Of a DNA stretch of 57,974 nt, positions 50,098 through 57,811 are shown piece by piece (within the stretch, counting starts at the first letter, position 1; the number at the start of each line of letters is the position of its first letter). The translations under genes were made by a program, and so were the position numbers. The notes beneath the pieces were generated by a model. That model saw only the letters and a program-made list of their open reading frames with translations, ran no database searches and was not told the origin of the DNA. This DNA is from Pseudomonadota bacterium. Lineage in GTDB: Bacteria; Pseudomonadota; Alphaproteobacteria; Acetobacterales; Acetobacteraceae. Location of the stretch: positions 1 through 57,974 of the forward strand of contig JAJZFA010000028.1 of the NCBI GenBank assembly GCA_021805565.1, written 5' to 3'.

Positions 50098-50172
50098 TCG
50101 GGAGTAGCTCAGCGGTAGAGCAATCGGCTGTTAACCGATCGGTCGTAGGTTCGAATCCTACCTCCCGAGCCA
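50098..50172 (+). tRNA. tRNA-Asn (anticodon GTT)
   Basis: Complete cloverleaf: acceptor TCGGGAG pairs with CTCCCGA, D arm AGCTCAGCGGTAGAGC, anticodon stem ATCGG/CCGAT with loop CTGTTAA (anticodon at 50130-50132), T arm GTAGGTTCGAATCCTAC, discriminator G and an encoded CCA. The 3' end overlaps the stop-codon end of the convergent gene at 50158. Confidence 0.97.
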
Positions 50173-51234
50173 TTGCGGTTCTACTGTTTGGCGGGCGTTC
50201 GCCAAGTAGGTCTGGCGTTGAATTTCGGCCGCATCGCTGTGAAAGAACGTCAACAATACGTATCGATGGCCATACGTGACCGGTGCGGCGGCGTGCAATA
50301 CCGCTGTCGAGAAAATGGCTCCGCCACCCGCTGGCGGCTCATAACCATGGTCGTTGTATTCGGGAAACTGTAAAAACCCGCCCTGATAGTCCCCGGTGTT
50401 CAGGTTTACCGACAACGCGAACTGCCGGAATGCCACGTTATCGGCCGTGTTGTCGCGGTGACGGTGGAACCAGCCAGCGCCGGCATCGTAGCGCGACACC
50501 AAAATGCGGTCTGTATGCGTTACCTGTACCTGAAAAGCCTTCGCGATTTCGGGCGCGCAGCGGGCCAGCAGCAGCGTCTGTAGAACCCGGTGGAGGTCTT
50601 CGTGTGGGTCGATCGGCATGTCGCGCCGGCATTTCTTGTCATGGTCCACGACGCTGCAACTATTACCCGCCGCGTCGATGCGCGCGATTTCGCCGTCGAT
50701 GGCCGGACCGCGCTCGAATCGGCCGATCAGGTCCTTGCACATCGCGGGCGGCAGCAGATTCGGCAGCATGATCGCGGGCGCGGGCTGGCACACCATGCGC
50801 GGCGCTTCGTTCGGCAGGGTATCGAGGCAATCCAGGCAAGCGGCGACCGGATCGGCCGCCAGTGCGGGATCGGTTCGCGACGCGAGCCGCGCATTGCGGT
50901 CGATCACCAGCACCGCCGCATCGTGTGCCCCGATGCCGCAACGCGCCAGAAACGCGCCGCAATCCACGATGCGGACCCCTCCCGCGAGACCGTCGCATAG
51001 CCATAGCGGGTTATCGTCCACCAAAAGCAGCACATCGGCATTGCGTCCGGAAAACAGGTCCAGCCGTGACGCGAAGGCGCCGATGGCGGGGCGCAGGCCG
51101 GCGACCGCTTCGGCCCCGGCCAGGATCAGCACCGCCGCCCGGCCATATTGTTCTTCGGAGGAATAAAACGTCTGGACCGAATCCATGCCGTAACAGGGCG
51201 GCAGTCGGTCGCCGGCCGAAACAATGGCGTTCAT
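50158..51234 (-). CDS. Redoxin-like plus 2OG-Fe(II) oxygenase fusion
   Basis: A 358-residue protein in two parts. Residues 1-150 resemble a peroxiredoxin-type fold (GDRLPPCYGMDSVQTFYSSEEQYGRAAVLILAGA), with Cys14 but not in the usual TxxC context, so activity is unclear. Residues 150-358 are a prolyl-4-hydroxylase-like dioxygenase: H259-R-D261 in WFHRHRDN, H314 in VLHAAAPV, and the 2OG-binding R324. Fe(II) ligands are thus complete. The ATG overlaps the stop of the FkbH-like gene by 4 bases, so they are coupled. The last residues lie inside the tRNA-Asn gene on the other strand. Confidence 0.82.
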   Translation of the reverse strand: MNAIVSAGDRLPPCYGMDSVQTFYSSEEQYGRAAVLILAGAEAVAGLRPAIGAFASRLDLFSGRNADVLLLVDDNPLWLCDGLAGGVRIVDCGAFLARCGIGAHDAAVLVIDRNARLASRTDPALAADPVAACLDCLDTLPNEAPRMVCQPAPAIMLPNLLPPAMCKDLIGRFERGPAIDGEIARIDAAGNSCSVVDHDKKCRRDMPIDPHEDLHRVLQTLLLARCAPEIAKAFQVQVTHTDRILVSRYDAGAGWFHRHRDNTADNVAFRQFALSVNLNTGDYQGGFLQFPEYNDHGYEPPAGGGAIFSTAVLHAAAPVTYGHRYVLLTFFHSDAAEIQRQTYLANARQTVEPQWLGR

Positions 51235-53351
51235 GCGGCGGCTCGCTCCGGATGGGGCAGGGTCCAGATGCCGTCCCCGGTTTCGGTAAATCCGTTGTCG
51301 CGATAGACGTGCCGCACCGGCAGATTGCGGCCGGTCGGCACGATCGTCGCCGACAGGCCGGGCACCGACCGGACGATTTCGGCCAGCAAGGCGCGTTCGC
51401 CGCCCAGGCCGATGACGCGGCAGCTCAATACCAGATTTTGGATGGTTCCCGCCGCGATTACCGCCGCGCCGACCAGGCCGTGATCGGTCAGGCGATCGCG
51501 CATGCGCAGGATGAACAGGCCCTGGGCGGCCGCGGCGGCCGACAGATCTGGCAACGTAAAGACGCGGCCGGTCGCGTTGAACTGAGTGGTGCGGGCCAGC
51601 AATTCCTGGACACGTTCCAGCACCGGAGCGGTCGCGGTTTCCCGCGTGGGCCGCTCGACCGTGGCGACCACGTTTAGGGAGGCGACGAAGGCCGCGTCGT
51701 CGCCGAACGCGGCGCGCATCCTGGCATGATCGCGTTGCGCCTTGACCAGATCGCTCCGCGCACCGGCTTCCTGGGTTATGCGAACCGGTTGCAGGCTGGG
51801 GTCTGTCAGCAAGGTGCGCCGTAGCGAGAACAGGTCGTCGCCGAGTACCGCGACATCTGGAAGGGCCTGGCGCACGCGTTCACGCTCCCGGGGGCTGTCG
51901 TCGATGAACACGAAGGCGCTTGGGGGAAATCCGAGTTCGGCGGCGATGGACGCGATATTGGCGGCCTTGTCGTCCCAGCCGATCCGCATGGCGGCAAAAT
52001 GATCCGGCAGCAGCAGCCGGTGGCGCGGGTAGGCCTGGGTATAGCGCCACAGCGCGCGCACCGTGGCTTCATCGTTCTTGCTGACGCAGGCCAGCAGAAT
52101 GCCGCGCCGGCGCAACGTGCGCAGCGCCTCATGAATGCCGAAATACAGGCCGATATAGGAATTGGGGCCGCCAATTTCGGGCGACCAGGCGAAGGGACTG
52201 CCGGTTTCGGCCAGAACGCCGGGCCACAACACACCGTCGAGATCGACGATCACGCATTTCTTTTGATTCAGGCCCAGTACGATGCTGAGTGTGTCCATAT
52301 GTACACGCGCCATCGCGGCTTCCCGGCGATAGGGGTCGCCGCCGACGCTGGCGGCCAGCGATTCCATATTGGGGAACTGGTTGTGCACCGCGGCCAGTTC
52401 CGCGGCCGGCCGTTGCAGCATCCAGCCAGAGGAGCCGAAATGGGTGAACGACACCAGCCCATCGTCCAGCAAAGCCGCGCTGCCGGCGGCGTTCAGCGTG
52501 GCGGCGACATCCACCAGATGTACATCGGAAAAGTCTTCCACCGCCCGCGCCAGCGCCAGATTGGCGGCCCTGAAGCGGTTGCGGTGGCTGTGGATGCCGC
52601 GATCGGCGAATCCCAGCGGTTGCAGGGTGGGTTCCGGCAGGCCGTCGATCAGGATCGGCGCGGGTGTTATGGCCCGCAGCTTCGTCACCATGGCGGTTAC
52701 CGCCTGGACATAAACGGCCGCCGGATCGCCGTTATGGTGTTCGGGGTCGCCGGTCGCGATGGCGTGGCGGGCCTGGAGGGCACCGACGATGATCGCGTCG
52801 TGGGGGCGGTCGCGGGCCAGTTCGGTGTCGGCGGCGAACGACGCGGCGGCCCGCAGGTCTATTCCGCGTCCGGCCGCGTCCCGGCGCAGGAAATCGGTTT
52901 CCATCTGCACGTCGCAGTCCCCGAGCAGAAGGATGTCGAGGCGGCGTTGGAAGGCGGCGGGTTCGGTAAGGGTGTGCGGCGATTGAACCGACCAGTACGG
53001 GTGCGATCCTTCCATCCGGACGCGGCGGTAGCGGTCGAGCTGGGTGGCGGGGTCGGTGCCTTGTAGGTCGCGGACGACGGCGGCGTGTTCGGCATCGGGC
53101 GGCAGATCGGTCAGGATACCGCGGTCTTTCAGCGTGTCGGCGCAGGCGCGAATGGTGGCTTGGTCTGTCCCCAGCATGCAGGCCAGAACGGGTAGCGCGG
53201 CGGCTAGATCGCGCGGTTCATCGAACCATGCGATCAGCCGGGCGACATCGGGGGTGACGGTGACGCGAGCCTGGCTGACGGCATGCACGGCTATCGCGCT
53301 GGCGGAGGTCAGGTCGAACACATGGACGAAAGCGGATCGGCGCAGGGACAT
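51231..53351 (-). CDS. FkbH-like HAD-IIIC protein with N-terminal winged-helix-like domain
   Basis: A 706-residue protein. About 25-85 looks like a winged-helix domain (VTPDVARLIAWFDEP, DTLKDRGIL). A long middle region (135-340) resembles the SGNH-like part of FkbH proteins (DILLLGDCDVQMETDFLRR). The HAD domain begins near 366: D370-L-D372-G-V-L-W-P-G, then VSKNDEATV and VFIDDSPRERERV, so the phosphatase residues are kept. The C-terminal 140 residues look like a GNAT fold (LFILRMRDRLTDHGLVGAAVI). FkbH enzymes load glycerate onto acyl carrier proteins, but no ACP or polyketide gene is near. First gene of a two-gene operon. Confidence 0.85.
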   Translation of the reverse strand: MSLRRSAFVHVFDLTSASAIAVHAVSQARVTVTPDVARLIAWFDEPRDLAAALPVLACMLGTDQATIRACADTLKDRGILTDLPPDAEHAAVVRDLQGTDPATQLDRYRRVRMEGSHPYWSVQSPHTLTEPAAFQRRLDILLLGDCDVQMETDFLRRDAAGRGIDLRAAASFAADTELARDRPHDAIIVGALQARHAIATGDPEHHNGDPAAVYVQAVTAMVTKLRAITPAPILIDGLPEPTLQPLGFADRGIHSHRNRFRAANLALARAVEDFSDVHLVDVAATLNAAGSAALLDDGLVSFTHFGSSGWMLQRPAAELAAVHNQFPNMESLAASVGGDPYRREAAMARVHMDTLSIVLGLNQKKCVIVDLDGVLWPGVLAETGSPFAWSPEIGGPNSYIGLYFGIHEALRTLRRRGILLACVSKNDEATVRALWRYTQAYPRHRLLLPDHFAAMRIGWDDKAANIASIAAELGFPPSAFVFIDDSPRERERVRQALPDVAVLGDDLFSLRRTLLTDPSLQPVRITQEAGARSDLVKAQRDHARMRAAFGDDAAFVASLNVVATVERPTRETATAPVLERVQELLARTTQFNATGRVFTLPDLSAAAAAQGLFILRMRDRLTDHGLVGAAVIAAGTIQNLVLSCRVIGLGGERALLAEIVRSVPGLSATIVPTGRNLPVRHVYRDNGFTETGDGIWTLPHPERAAA

Positions 53352-53410: not shown

Positions 53411-54823
53411 TTAACGCGCGTTTGGTTGATGTGGGGGGGCGGATTTCGAGTTTGGTTTGGCGCCGCCGCATGGGTTGTTCGCCAGGGGGGGGGAGTGGCC
53501 GGGCCGTTTGGGGGGCGGCTTCGGTACGGCGATGCTGTCGTTTCTTACCAGAAATTCAGCCGAAGTACGCAATGAAGTCCCTGGATCGGCGCCATAGCGT
53601 GCGATCATCGGCTCAAAAGCGCGCAGAACCACTGTTGTCAGGAATCCGCTAGAAAAGCCGGCCAGCATATTGGGAATGAGTTTGGCCAGCGGGAAAACGT
53701 AAACCTCGGCGCGGGCACCAAGCAGGATGACCAGTGCGAATTCGGTCGAGGTCCGGGCGATGGCAGCGACAAGCCCGAGAAAGCAATAGCCCAGCGCCCA
53801 GCGCGGCAAGTACCGGACGAGCGGAACTCCGAGATCGATCACGATGCCGGGCGCGGTATGTTTAAGCACCTCCAGCAAACCGAGCCGCCCGTCGCCTTGC
53901 ATGAAGCCGATGACACCCATGATCGACCCGACGGCGGTGGCGCCCCAGCGCGCGTGGGTCAGTCGGGCCGCCAGCACATACAGCGGGAACAGGACGACAA
54001 GTTTGTAGCCCGACGCAAACGGAATTCCGGGAAATATTTTGATGAACTTGAGGGAGGCCATGCAAAGGGCGATACCCGTCACAACCGCGACGTCCCTGGC
54101 GAGTTTCGCATCGAACGGCTGTCCGTCCGCCGGAACCGGGACCGCGCTGGCGCGATCGATATTGCGCTCGATAATGTCAACGATGAAGCTGACATCGCCG
54201 CCCACGACCTGCCGCACGATTGTTCGGAAACCGGGTCCGGGCGGTGTCTGGTTTTGGTTACCACCCCGGCCCTTGCCGCCGCCGCTTCCGCGCGGCCGGT
54301 CGCGGACCTGATCCAGCAAATTAAGGGTGCGATCGAGCGAATACACGAAGATCGGCGGTAGCCTGAACGATTCCAGGCCGGCCACCAGATCGCGACCGTT
54401 CCCCCCAAGGCGCACCAACGCCGATGCCAGCAGAAGCGTGGCGATTTGCAGGCACATCAGCCCGGCGCGATCGATCCCGCTTAGGTTCAGGGTCAATGTC
54501 CAATGAAGAAAGGACAGGGGCAAAACCAGGACCCGCGTCCGCGGGCCCGGCGTGTCGGGGGGAAGCACTGTGTATAAAATGAATAAAAATGCGAACAGCC
54601 ATTTGAAACGCGCCAACGGGCGCAATACCGCCGCCAATCCGGCGCGGGCGCGCAGTAAAAGCACGATCTGCAAAGCCAGCAGCAGGGCAAGCCCGATCCA
54701 CTGGCCCCAGCGCACCTGGATGACCGACGGCAGAAGGAAGATCGCCGCCGTGACGCCCAGCAAATAGAATACCTTCCCGCGCCCGGCCATGGATCGGTCG
54801 TGCTTTGGATCAGGGCTGTTCAT
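53411..54823 (-). CDS. Membrane protein resembling a fused ECF-transporter T and S component
   Basis: A 470-residue protein; the ATG at 54823 is preceded by GGAAGGGG. The N-terminal half (about 15-190) has five to six helices and the T-component pattern (IDRAGLMCLQIATLLLASALVRLGG, then DLVAGLESFRLPPIFVYSLDRTLNLLDQV). A Gly-rich, basic linker follows (about 190-215). The C-terminal half (about 255-435) has six helices resembling S components (FASGYKLVVLFPLYVLAARL, VLKHTAPGIVIDLGVPLVRYL). No ATPase gene is next to it. It is divergent from the molybdenum storage genes and shares their upstream region. I infer a role in molybdate or tungstate uptake; the substrate is not proven. Confidence 0.7.
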   Translation of the reverse strand: MNSPDPKHDRSMAGRGKVFYLLGVTAAIFLLPSVIQVRWGQWIGLALLLALQIVLLLRARAGLAAVLRPLARFKWLFAFLFILYTVLPPDTPGPRTRVLVLPLSFLHWTLTLNLSGIDRAGLMCLQIATLLLASALVRLGGNGRDLVAGLESFRLPPIFVYSLDRTLNLLDQVRDRPRGSGGGKGRGGNQNQTPPGPGFRTIVRQVVGGDVSFIVDIIERNIDRASAVPVPADGQPFDAKLARDVAVVTGIALCMASLKFIKIFPGIPFASGYKLVVLFPLYVLAARLTHARWGATAVGSIMGVIGFMQGDGRLGLLEVLKHTAPGIVIDLGVPLVRYLPRWALGYCFLGLVAAIARTSTEFALVILLGARAEVYVFPLAKLIPNMLAGFSSGFLTTVVLRAFEPMIARYGADPGTSLRTSAEFLVRNDSIAVPKPPPKRPGHSPPLANNPCGGAKPNSKSAPPHQPNAR

Positions 54824-54910
54824 GACGCGATCCCCTTCCAAGGACAGGGCTTGGAGCACACAGGTTCGGATAATGTCAGATTAGCCGCCGCCCTGGAACG
54901 CCGCCCCAGC

Positions 54911-54967
54911 CGTTATACGCATCCCCGAATTCGGGGATGAAATTCGTTAGGCCGACAACCATATAAC
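54911..54967. promoter_or_regulatory. Divergent promoter region with a perfect 20-bp palindrome
   Basis: The palindrome CATCCCCGAATTCGGGGATG (54920-54939) lies between outward-facing TATAAC elements: 54917-54912 on the minus strand (towards the membrane gene) and 54962-54967 on the plus strand (towards mosB). Position suggests an operator controlling both genes. It is not a standard ModE site. -35 elements are weak. Confidence 0.55.
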
Positions 54968-55005
54968 CAGCTGTGCGGCATAATTTAAGTGGGGAAACCG
55001 AGGCG

Positions 55006-55821
55006 ATGGGCGACCTGACCGTGGACCAGATGCTGGCAAGTATGCTGGGTGGCACCAGCCAGACCGACGAACATGAGATGGCGCGTTTGGACACCCAGCC
55101 GGTTGTGTCCATTCTGCCCGACGCGAACATGCTTAAGATCGGCGGTCAAAGTTTCATCGATCGCGGGCGAGTCGCGGTTTTCCCGCTGATCGAGGAGATC
55201 GTGGCGAACCTTCCGCGCCACAAAATGATTATCGGCACAGGTGCGGGGACACGGGCGCGGCAGGCTTACAGCGTCGGTCTCGATCTCGGCATGCCGACCG
55301 GGGTATTGAGCGTTCTTGGGTTTTTCGTTGCGATCCAGAACGCGAAGATGATCCATTATCTGCTCGCCAAGCACGGCATTCCCTCGATCGAACCCGCACA
55401 GTTCGCGCAGATGCCGCTGTATCTTGCCGAACGCCAGGCCTGCGTTTGCGTTGGTATGCCGCCATATTCGTATTGGCAGCCCAATCCGGAGGTTGGCCGC
55501 ATCCCGCCCAATCGCACCGACACCGGCTGCTATTTGATCAGCGAGGTGCTGGGCGCGAAATCGATGATCTACATCAAGGATGAGGAAGGGCTGTACACCG
55601 CCGATCCGAAGAAAGATCCGCAAGCGCGGTTCATTCCGAAGATTACGGTCGAGGAGATGGAGGCGATGGACCTGGGGGATCTCGTGCTGGAACGCAACGT
55701 TCTGCAACTCATGAAAACCGCCAGGAATCGCCGTTCGGTACAGGTTATTAACGGGCTTGTGCCCGGCAATCTGACGCGCGCGCTGAATGGCGAACATGTC
55801 GGCACCATCATTACCGCTTGA
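55006..55821 (+). CDS. mosB: Molybdenum storage protein beta-like subunit (amino-acid-kinase fold)
   Basis: MoSto from Azotobacter is a hexamer that stores about a hundred Mo atoms as polyoxomolybdate, using ATP. The 271 residues (ATG at 55006, GAGG upstream) fit the beta subunit as I recall it: ILPDANMLKIGGQSFIDRGRVAVFPLIEEIVA, MIIGTGAGTRARQAYSVGLDLGMPTGVL, MPPYSYWQPNPEVGRIPPNRTDTG, IYIKDEEGLYTADPK and QVINGLVPGNLTRALNGEHVGTIITA. A cytoplasmic protein. It ends 17 bases before the alpha-like gene. Confidence 0.92.
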   Translation: MGDLTVDQMLASMLGGTSQTDEHEMARLDTQPVVSILPDANMLKIGGQSFIDRGRVAVFPLIEEIVANLPRHKMIIGTGAGTRARQAYSVGLDLGMPTGVLSVLGFFVAIQNAKMIHYLLAKHGIPSIEPAQFAQMPLYLAERQACVCVGMPPYSYWQPNPEVGRIPPNRTDTGCYLISEVLGAKSMIYIKDEEGLYTADPKKDPQARFIPKITVEEMEAMDLGDLVLERNVLQLMKTARNRRSVQVINGLVPGNLTRALNGEHVGTIITA

Positions 55822-55838
55822 ACGGAAGGTCCGGAATT

Positions 55839-56708
55839 ATGGAACAATCCAGTCACGATCCGGCTTTGCCGGACAGCGCGTCCGATCTTAGGCCCGACAC
55901 GCGCCACCATGTCCATTCGATGCTGATGCGCGAAAGCCTGCTCGATAAGGGGGTAATGGCGGCAACCGAGTTGCCGGTTATGCGCATGCTGCCGTTTTGC
56001 CACGTCGTCAAAGTGGGCGGACGGTCGATCATCGATCAGGGCAAGTCCGCCACCTATCCGCTGGTGGAGGCGATTACCGGTGCGTTGCGGAACTTCAAGC
56101 TGGTTATCGGCACCGGCGGCGGTGTTCGCGCCCGCCATGTCACCGCGATCGCCATGGATCTGGGTTTGCCCACTGGCGTCCTGGCGCAATTGCGCATGAT
56201 CGATGCGCTCGGGAACGCACATTTGCTTGGTACGTTGCTCGCGCCGCAAGGCGTGGTGGCGATTCCACCGGAAATACTTGGTCATATGCTGCCGTTCTTC
56301 ATCCACGCCTCGCCGGGCGTGATCTGCAATGGCGACCCGCCGTTCTCGCTGTGGGAGCATACCCCCGCTGCCGGGCGAATCCCGCCGCATCGAACCGATT
56401 CCGGCATGTTCCTGCTCGCCGAATGCTTTGGTTGCGCGACTTACACAATGATCAAGGATGTCGATGGGTTGTACGATTCGGATCCGAAATCCAATCCCGA
56501 AGCGAAATATATTAGTAAGATAACGGTTGCCGCATTGCGGGAACGCAATTTGAAGACCTTGCCGTTCGACCGGGTGCTGATCGATCTTCTAGCCAACGCC
56601 CGGCAGATGAAGCGTATCCAGATCGTCAACGGGCTGAAGCCGCATTTGCTGGAACCGGCCCTGCGCGGTGAACATGTTGGGACGATGATCGTCAGGGACG
56701 AATCCTGA
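55839..56708 (+). CDS. mosA: Molybdenum storage protein alpha-like subunit
   Basis: A 289-residue partner of the previous protein. I chose the ATG at 55839 over an upstream TTG. Family blocks: MLPFCHVVKVGGRSIIDQGKSATYPLVEAI, IGTGGGVRARHVTAIAMDLGLPTGVLAQL, AAGRIPPHRTDSGMFLLAECFGCATYTMIKDVDGLYDSDPK and QIVNGLKPHLLEPALRGEHVGTMIV. The loop that in the Azotobacter alpha subunit carries a His cluster (PPYHHHE) reads PPFSLWEH here, more like the beta subunit. It probably forms the hexamer with mosB. Confidence 0.9.
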   Translation: MEQSSHDPALPDSASDLRPDTRHHVHSMLMRESLLDKGVMAATELPVMRMLPFCHVVKVGGRSIIDQGKSATYPLVEAITGALRNFKLVIGTGGGVRARHVTAIAMDLGLPTGVLAQLRMIDALGNAHLLGTLLAPQGVVAIPPEILGHMLPFFIHASPGVICNGDPPFSLWEHTPAAGRIPPHRTDSGMFLLAECFGCATYTMIKDVDGLYDSDPKSNPEAKYISKITVAALRERNLKTLPFDRVLIDLLANARQMKRIQIVNGLKPHLLEPALRGEHVGTMIVRDES

Positions 56709-56908: not shown

Positions 56909-57811
56909 ATGGAGTCGACGTTGATCGCCACGCCCGCGTCCGAGATCACGGCTCGGTTGGACCGTCTGCCAATGACCCGGCATATGTGGATGCTCGTTTT
57001 GCTGATATCGCTGGGCGGCTGGTTCGATACGTATGCCATCTTCCTGACCGGCTCCATCGCGCCCGGCATGTTCGCCGATAAGATATTCACTCCAACCACG
57101 GTTTCGCTTTTCGGCTTCACCGGACTCGCGTCGTTCATCGCCGCGCTGTTCGCGGGCCTGTTCGTTGGCACAATGTTTTTCACCCGCGCAGCCGACCGTT
57201 TCGGGCGCCGCACCGTCTTCACCTATTCCCTGGTCTGGTACTGTATCGCCACCCTGGTCATGGCGTTCCAGTACACGCCGAACGGCGTCAATCTGTGGCG
57301 TTTCATCGCCGGCATCGGCATCGGCGTGGAACTCGTCACCGTCGATACTTTCATCTCCGAACTCGTGCCCAAACGGGCGCGCGGCAAGACCTTCGCCATT
57401 CAGCAGTCCATCGGCTTTATTCCGGTTCCGTTGGTCGCTTTGCTCGCCTGGGTTCTCAACCCGATGGCGCCGTTCGGCCTGTCCGGCTGGCGCTGGGTGG
57501 TCATCATCGGGTCCGTTGGCGCGATCGTCGTCTGGTTTGTTCGCCTCAAGCTGCCGGAATCGCCACGCTGGCTCGCCCAACAAGGGCGCGTGGATGAGGC
57601 CGACCGTATTATGCGCGCCATCGAAACCAAGGTGGCCGCCCAGTCTGGCCGCCCGCTGCCGGCGCCGGAACCGCCGGTGGCCGAAGATCCGCGCCGGGGA
57701 ACGCTGTCCGAGATATTCAATCCGGCCTACCGAAGCCGTACAATCATGCTGTCGGTGGCCAATTTTTTCTCGACCATCGGGTTTTACGGTTTCGCGAACT
57801 GGGTACTTTGA
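56909..57811 (+). pseudogene. MFS transporter, truncated after seven helices
   Basis: The 300-residue frame starts with a good GGGAGG site and matches sugar/metabolite MFS carriers: helices 1-6, with the loop-2 signature ADRFGRRTVFTYSLVW, then GIGIGVELVTVDTFISELVPKRARGK, the usual central loop (LPESPRWLAQQGRVDEADRIM), and helix 7 (VANFFSTIGFYGFANWV), where the frame stops. Family members have about 450 residues and twelve helices, so the second half is missing. Sequence after FANWV is unrelated to the family, so an insertion or rearrangement interrupts the gene. The product is probably inactive. Confidence 0.75.

Follow-up and report, generated by a model that had tools for sequence, protein, structure and literature searches.

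What does a membrane protein that resembles two components of an energy-coupling factor (ECF) transporter, joined in one chain, do beside genes for a molybdenum storage protein (MoSto)? The question is raised by a 57,974-nucleotide stretch of DNA from an alphaproteobacterium of the Acetobacteraceae (contig JAJZFA010000028.1 of assembly GCA_021805565.1; hereafter the window, which is one whole contig, C36). On its minus strand at 53411..54823, the window carries a gene that we call ECF-TS, which encodes a single-chain EcfT-like/S-component-like membrane protein of 470 residues, as assigned from its ATG start, a profile match and the predicted structure (a GTG at 54859 is an alternative start that would give 482 residues). 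This gene diverges from a mosB-like gene (55006..55821, plus strand) and a mosA-like gene (55839..56708, plus strand), with 182 bp between the two ATG codons, in agreement with the gap of about 180 bp given in an initial annotation of this DNA. From the sequence and the modelled structure, we consider it about 50% probable that ECF-TS works in the membrane as an ECF-type unit, picking up molybdate or tungstate from outside the cell and passing it on to a MoSto-like cage docked to it.

The structure of ECF-TS was predicted with good scores (predicted local distance difference test, pLDDT, 86; predicted template modelling score, pTM, 0.81), and the 14 best structural matches of this model in VIA-align, on which the structural verdict rests, were all solved S components. 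A Foldseek search with the first model gave no significant E-value (best 0.05, for 5edl). The six-helix S-component fold is present in the C half of the predicted structure (residues 239-411; 53591..54109, minus strand), delimited by conservation as well, while family and profile searches with this half returned no sequence match to S components. The N half (residues 1-172; 54308..54823, minus strand) comprises four long membrane helices, a beta hairpin and two further helices, and residues 28-160 matched TIGR02454, the CbiQ/EcfT family, at 23.8 bits against a cut-off of 111.8. A profile of 23 ECF-TS relatives matched the solved EcfT 4hzu_T with an E-value of 8e-8, and the N half resembles EcfT weakly by structure as well. 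Although a Pfam scan of the window's own ECF-TS gave no match, two scanned relatives, P0122 (39.7 bits) and P0137 (32.9 bits), passed the 25-bit cut-off of Pfam CbiQ, three more matched under it (P0186, P0195 and the protein of locus L008), and four did not match. The T-component-like and S-component-like halves proposed in the initial annotation were thus both recovered by structure prediction and comparison, the fold being EcfT-like in one half and S-component-like in the other rather than unrelated to ECF components.

EcfT engages its ATPases through a pair of long coupling helices that carry motifs of the A-R-G/S type. The EcfT membrane scaffold, i.e., its N-terminal two thirds, is present in ECF-TS, but these coupling arms are not recognisable: the family matches end before them, and no motif for coupling runs through the family (AR[GSHA] occurs within the arm region in 42 of 105 homologues). 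In two rows the structural alignment extends to residue 184-186. At the site of the arms, the predicted structure instead places two short helices (199-207 and 212-227, within residues 199-238; 54110..54229, minus strand), preceded by a Gly/Arg-rich linker of low pLDDT (residues 173-198; 54230..54307, minus strand). Across the 105 homologues the aligned region 172-198 is 42% Gly, with a net positive charge in 95. The Gly-rich linker noted earlier therefore exists, but not exactly at the border of the two halves: it sits between helices 157-174 and 199-207, within the region of the EcfT cytoplasmic arms.

Could the S-type fold serve as a sensor rather than a carrier? An excerpt of PMC11109136 describes receptors that use the S-component fold, and also an AXXXA motif in helix 1 that docks the S component to EcfT and is typical of transport-competent S components. 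In ECF-TS the motif is found in only 39 of 105 relatives, which would suit a regulator that senses molybdate and controls a Mod/Wtp importer or the loading of MoSto without carrying the ion, but the window protein does have it (A252/A256); a small-xxx-small pattern at 246/250 occurs in 91 of the 105. Because the T-like half is kept, a feature of none of the receptor combinations in that excerpt, and no signalling domain is attached, we regard a sensory role as unlikely.

S components bind their ligands in the outer half, and it is the S half of ECF-TS that is best conserved. All 12 columns that are invariant among the 105 relatives lie within it (P265, G272, K274, P280, G299, G310, G312, G315, E318, G326, D330 and R357), K259, K262, R292, R313, K321 and H322 are conserved in more than 90%, and the T half is less conserved. 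A topology with the N terminus inside agrees with most loop charges, the loop S1-2 being the exception. If this topology holds, the model places K259, K262, K274, R313, K321, H322 and R357 in the outer half of the S domain, a basic cluster that would suit an oxyanion.

The link between ECF-TS and mosAB is real and recurrent. A pattern scan of the genome collection, which relied on two short peptide patterns and will overlook variants, yielded 17 ECF-TS loci in 16 genomes (L011 and L017 belong to the same metagenome-assembled genome, MAG); together with the window's genome and three more Bradyrhizobium, these make up a set of 20 genomes. MoSto homologues were present in 19 of the 20, the exception being G400 with only 2.6 Mb of sequence. 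In 16 of the 20, ECF-TS and MoSto lie on one contig at most 14 kb apart: the window, seven Bradyrhizobium (gaps of 5.0-13.8 kb), L006, L008 and L010-L015. In the last eight, distant loci, a mos gene follows directly 3' of ECF-TS on the same strand, and in five of them its most upstream start candidate overlaps the ECF-TS stop by 4 bases (three of the five also offer later mos start codons). ECF-TS and MoSto are on separate contigs in G389 and G393, with ends and order that fit a neighbourhood, in G391 they are truly apart, and at L007, L009, L016 and L017 no mos gene was seen within the retrieved locus. The linkage spans Pseudomonadota, Myxococcota, Nitrospirota and one Cyanobacteriota MAG. 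A neighbourhood survey had been named as a check at the outset, and it thus returned repeated linkage to mosAB and, in many loci, to molybdenum or tungsten (Mo/W) importer genes across phyla.

Broader samples delimit this association. In the class, phylum and genus samples, no more than the 4 to 9 best candidates per genome were scored, so that misses are possible. At class level, a single genome of 385, the window's own, was found to have ECF-TS, and this one alone was found to have MoSto; at phylum level MoSto was found in 1 of 398, again the window's own. As these two samples hold no other MoSto genome, the cases of MoSto without ECF-TS come from Bradyrhizobium and Azospirillum. MoSto was found on 10 Azospirillum plasmids, and neither of the two inspected has an adjoining ECF-TS, so not every MoSto needs one. 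When the window protein was searched against viral contigs, phages and plasmids, no relative came up.

Within Bradyrhizobium the dependence appears one-sided. Among 265 genomes, MoSto was found in 64 and ECF-TS in 8, all of them among the 64 (hypergeometric 8e-6, relatedness ignored). MosB scores mark off these 8 precisely: they lie at 420-438 bits in the 8 and reach no more than 375 in the other 56, on a profile that was built from ECF-linked MoSto and hence favours that subfamily; a MoSto tree built without that profile shows the same split. From the counts and the tree it follows that MoSto exists without ECF-TS, and ECF-TS hardly without its own type of MoSto. One genome, G387, holds both MoSto types, at L055 (G387:C106) and on G387:C79, one linked to ECF-TS and one not.

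The Bradyrhizobium block consists of importer genes, a WD40-repeat gene and mosB-mosA. The WD40-repeat gene, identified by Pfam in L002, stands between the importer genes and mosB in all 8 ECF-bearing genomes (e.g., L022:15567-17501 and L002:13910-16153). ECF-TS adjoins the block in G386, G1018 and G974, and lies divergent behind RND-type genes in G385, G387, G388, G973 and G389 (in G389 over two contigs). In five Bradyrhizobium genomes, two RND-type genes and one further conserved gene (427 residues in L022) are directly upstream of ECF-TS (loci L022, L023, L024, L048 and L005; AcrB family by Pfam in L001). Near ECF-TS in Bradyrhizobium erythrophlei there is a gene with MoeA domains, which belong to molybdopterin synthesis (L001:12491-13627).

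The RND-type genes, which run in the same direction as ECF-TS in the five genomes and are partly present in the retrieved stretch of a sixth, bring up an overflow exporter or release valve that would empty MoSto or the cytoplasm at Mo/W excess. We hold this to be very unlikely: the other loci searched gave no match to an RND query apart from a weak one (23%) in L017, the conserved basic residues are in the outer half, and S components are, to our knowledge, importers.

Mo/W importer genes accompany ECF-TS in the same block firmly in 11 of the 20 genomes and weakly in two more. G385 has modA, modB and modC above curated cut-offs and G386 modA and modB likewise, and the importer genes of G387, G388, G389, G973 and G1018 are 70-95% identical to those of these two. 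Upstream of ECF-TS lie wtpABC in L006, a fused modA-modB with a ModC-like ATPase in L008, and mod genes in L014, while in L011 the mod genes come after mosAB. The weak cases are G974, with WtpA/WtpB-like matches all under cut-off, and L010, where a general permease model was above cut-off, TupB under it at 128.9 bits, and the ATPase not specific. At the loci of the remaining seven genomes, the window's included, no Mo/W importer gene was seen. None of the seven gene products at 48.8-57.8 kb of the window, ECF-TS and mosAB included, is an ABC ATPase, a ModC-like query against the window gave a single match with an E-value of 0.72, and no EcfA/A' ATPase pair is encoded beside ECF-TS.

ECF systems mostly carry vitamins or Ni/Co, and a transporter of such another compound could lie beside mosAB by chance; recurrent MoSto and Mo/W importer linkage over several phyla, plus the fusions described next, largely refute this and leave it highly improbable. 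In four protein clusters ECF-TS is followed, in one chain, by a MoSto domain (P0175, P0176 and P0195 with one member sequence each, P0188 with five; one cluster is named as Vulcanimicrobiaceae). Three fusions were entered into the tree, where P0175 and P0188 group with the L011 gene directly 3' of ECF-TS. The domain is attached at the C-terminal end of ECF-TS, which in the window protein is a tail of residues 412-470 (53414..53590, minus strand), of low confidence from about residue 420 in the predicted structure. At L008, in a single MAG, a ModC-like ATPase and ECF-TS form one frame without a stop; this ATPase scores best as modC (221.5 bits, cut-off 285) against 103.4 for the ECF ATPase model.

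This ATPase fusion bears on two of the alternatives. ModC normally carries a regulatory domain after its ATPase part, and in L008 ECF-TS comes after a short ATPase part, at just that place, which adds to the sensory case weighed above. It also speaks for a conventional ECF importer for molybdate or tungstate, with ModC or WtpC recruited as its ATPase pair and MoSto as a downstream consumer only. Such borrowing would explain both the fusion and the mod neighbours: modC or wtpC genes are found in many of the loci, and the window's genome encodes, on contig C64, one ModC above the family cut-off together with a ModB, with no CbiQ-family match found in that genome. Set against it are the lack of recognisable EcfT coupling arms and the occurrence of the ATPase fusion in one MAG versus MoSto fusions in four clusters (counts from different searches, and so not a strict comparison). 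We consider the borrowed-ATPase explanation possible but doubtful.

The storage partner itself differs from the known one. The mosB product (271 residues) matched PDB 2ogx_B with 298.6 bits (E 3.6e-88); the mosA product (289 residues) is nearer to this beta chain (223.6 bits, E 3.4e-65) than to the alpha chain 2ogx_A (198.7 bits). The two adjacent genes encode homologues of AA-kinase fold, 42% identical to each other. According to an excerpt of PMC4504029, octamolybdate in Azotobacter MoSto is held by His156 and Glu129. Glu129, His140, His156, His157 and His158 are retained by all 9 Azotobacter-like MosA sequences and by none of the 8 belonging to the window's MosA type; window-type MosB has Glu at aligned column 129 in 8 of 8 and no His at 156. 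In the distant loci, His156 occurs in 9 of 20 unfused and all four fused rows, and Glu129 in none. Since the two MosA ligands are absent, the storage chemistry of the window type may differ from that of Azotobacter MoSto. Among its alphaproteobacterial rows, a tree of 57 MoSto sequences (midpoint root, long-branch warning) splits the two types for MosA as well as for MosB. The ECF label requires 2 changes versus 15.7 in shuffles, with L026 and L027 labelled by presence of the gene in the genome, not by adjacency. The Azospirillum proteins fall in the other type, and for one of them a match to Azotobacter MosA at 470 bits was obtained. Sampled were seven of the eight ECF-bearing Bradyrhizobium and seven other-type Bradyrhizobium loci (six from the 56 genomes with MoSto only, plus the second copy in G387). 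The MoSto of G389 was excluded from the tree and from the ligand count, as its mosA (L025:6851-7661) reads in two frames and may be broken or mis-sequenced. Nitrogenase is not the common reason for this module: a search for nifD came up empty in the genome of the window and in the 11 distant genomes, several of which are incomplete MAGs, and the gene is present in 7 of 8 ECF-bearing and 3 of 4 tested MoSto-only Bradyrhizobium.

How might such a module work? In the reading that we favour, a T-like scaffold joined to an S-component-like binding domain would act within a Mo/W uptake-and-storage module. The S half would bind molybdate or tungstate in a basic pocket at the outer membrane face, and ECF-TS would release the anion inward, where a MoSto-like (alpha-beta)3 cage, docked on the cytoplasmic side, would receive it, such that the metal is taken at the membrane and bypasses the free cytoplasmic pool. 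With a handover of this kind, the fusions and the tight operons would make sense, as would the lack of recognisable ATPase arms. An excerpt of PMC6448029 reports that Azotobacter MoSto loads metal at the expense of ATP, and the likeliest energy sources would be ATP-driven loading by the MoSto-like cage or a shared ModC/WtpC-type ATPase. A bolder version, which we advance only tentatively and consider rather improbable, is a storage-coupled ECF transporter in which the T-S chain lost its own ATPases and ATP-driven mineralisation in the docked cage pulls the anion through the membrane; if so, a soluble mineral-storing ATPase would replace the energy-coupling module. The molybdate or tungstate importer feeding MoSto that the initial annotation proposed is supported in part: the linkage to mosAB and Mo/W genes stands, and the dedicated importer role is no more than conjectural. 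Three findings weigh against a simple importer: complete modABC or wtpABC sets in several of the same loci, a redundancy that needs explaining; a T half without a recognisable C-terminal third; and a MosA subfamily lacking the polyoxomolybdate ligands Glu129/His156.

Other features of the window are peripheral to this argument. The divergent intergenic region (54824..55005) contains a 20-bp perfect palindrome at 54920-54939 with a 14-bp core, CCCCGAATTCGGGG; its candidacy as an operator of a Mo regulon was dropped, as the core does not recur exactly anywhere else in the genome. A promoter and terminator scan of the 182-bp gap found nothing. Beyond ECF-TS, a 706-residue protein (51231-53351, minus strand) has HAD-like and GDSL-like stretches, both under Pfam cut-offs, and its gene adjoins a 358-residue open reading frame (50158-51234, minus strand) with a weak oxygenase match only. 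The sequence to the right of mosA ends after 1.3 kb. There, an MFS sugar-transporter-like frame (56909-57811) that matches model positions 3-217 of 452 of Pfam Sugar_tr ends at 300 residues, 163 bp from the contig end, and is either a truncated gene or a contig-end artefact.

Our searches of the open-access literature yielded no ECF system that carries molybdate or tungstate, no protein combining T and S in a single chain, no membrane protein partnering MoSto and no description of the ECF-TS gene family; PMC13119186 mentions ECF and molybdate, but the part consulted concerns a cobalt system. An excerpt of PMC6448029 describes MoSto as without known homologues in databases. Our data suggest that ECF-TS and MoSto form an undescribed way of Mo/W uptake and storage, which, if true, would unite metal import and mineral storage in one complex, extend ECF chemistry to oxyanions, and establish a second MoSto subfamily outside nitrogen fixation. 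The hypothesis lends itself to direct tests, since the partners are encoded together and in some cases fused.

Among the closest known systems, ECF-TS resembles the ECF transporters (CbiMNQO, and EcfAA'T with RibU, ThiT, PanT or FolT), to which its N half is similar by profile and weakly by structure and its C half by structure. Unlike them, it has T and S in one polypeptide, with a Gly/Arg-rich linker and short helices replacing the arm region of EcfT, no EcfA pair seen adjoining it, and linkage to Mo/W genes. The MoSto (MosAB) of Azotobacter vinelandii (PDB 2ogx) likewise consists of two paralogous AA-kinase-fold subunits encoded by adjacent genes, but the window's pair forms a separate subfamily in both subunits, its MosA lacks Glu129, His140 and His156-158, and no nifD was found in its genome. 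ModABC and WtpABC share the presumed substrate of ECF-TS and their genes its block, once partly fused to it, whereas ECF-TS belongs to a different membrane protein family without a binding protein of its own. Finally, the 5TMR histidine kinases, as described in the consulted portion of PMC11109136, resemble ECF-TS in having the S-type fold as one domain of a larger chain, yet the partner of this fold in ECF-TS is not a kinase but a T-like half, with a storage protein attached as well in some cases.

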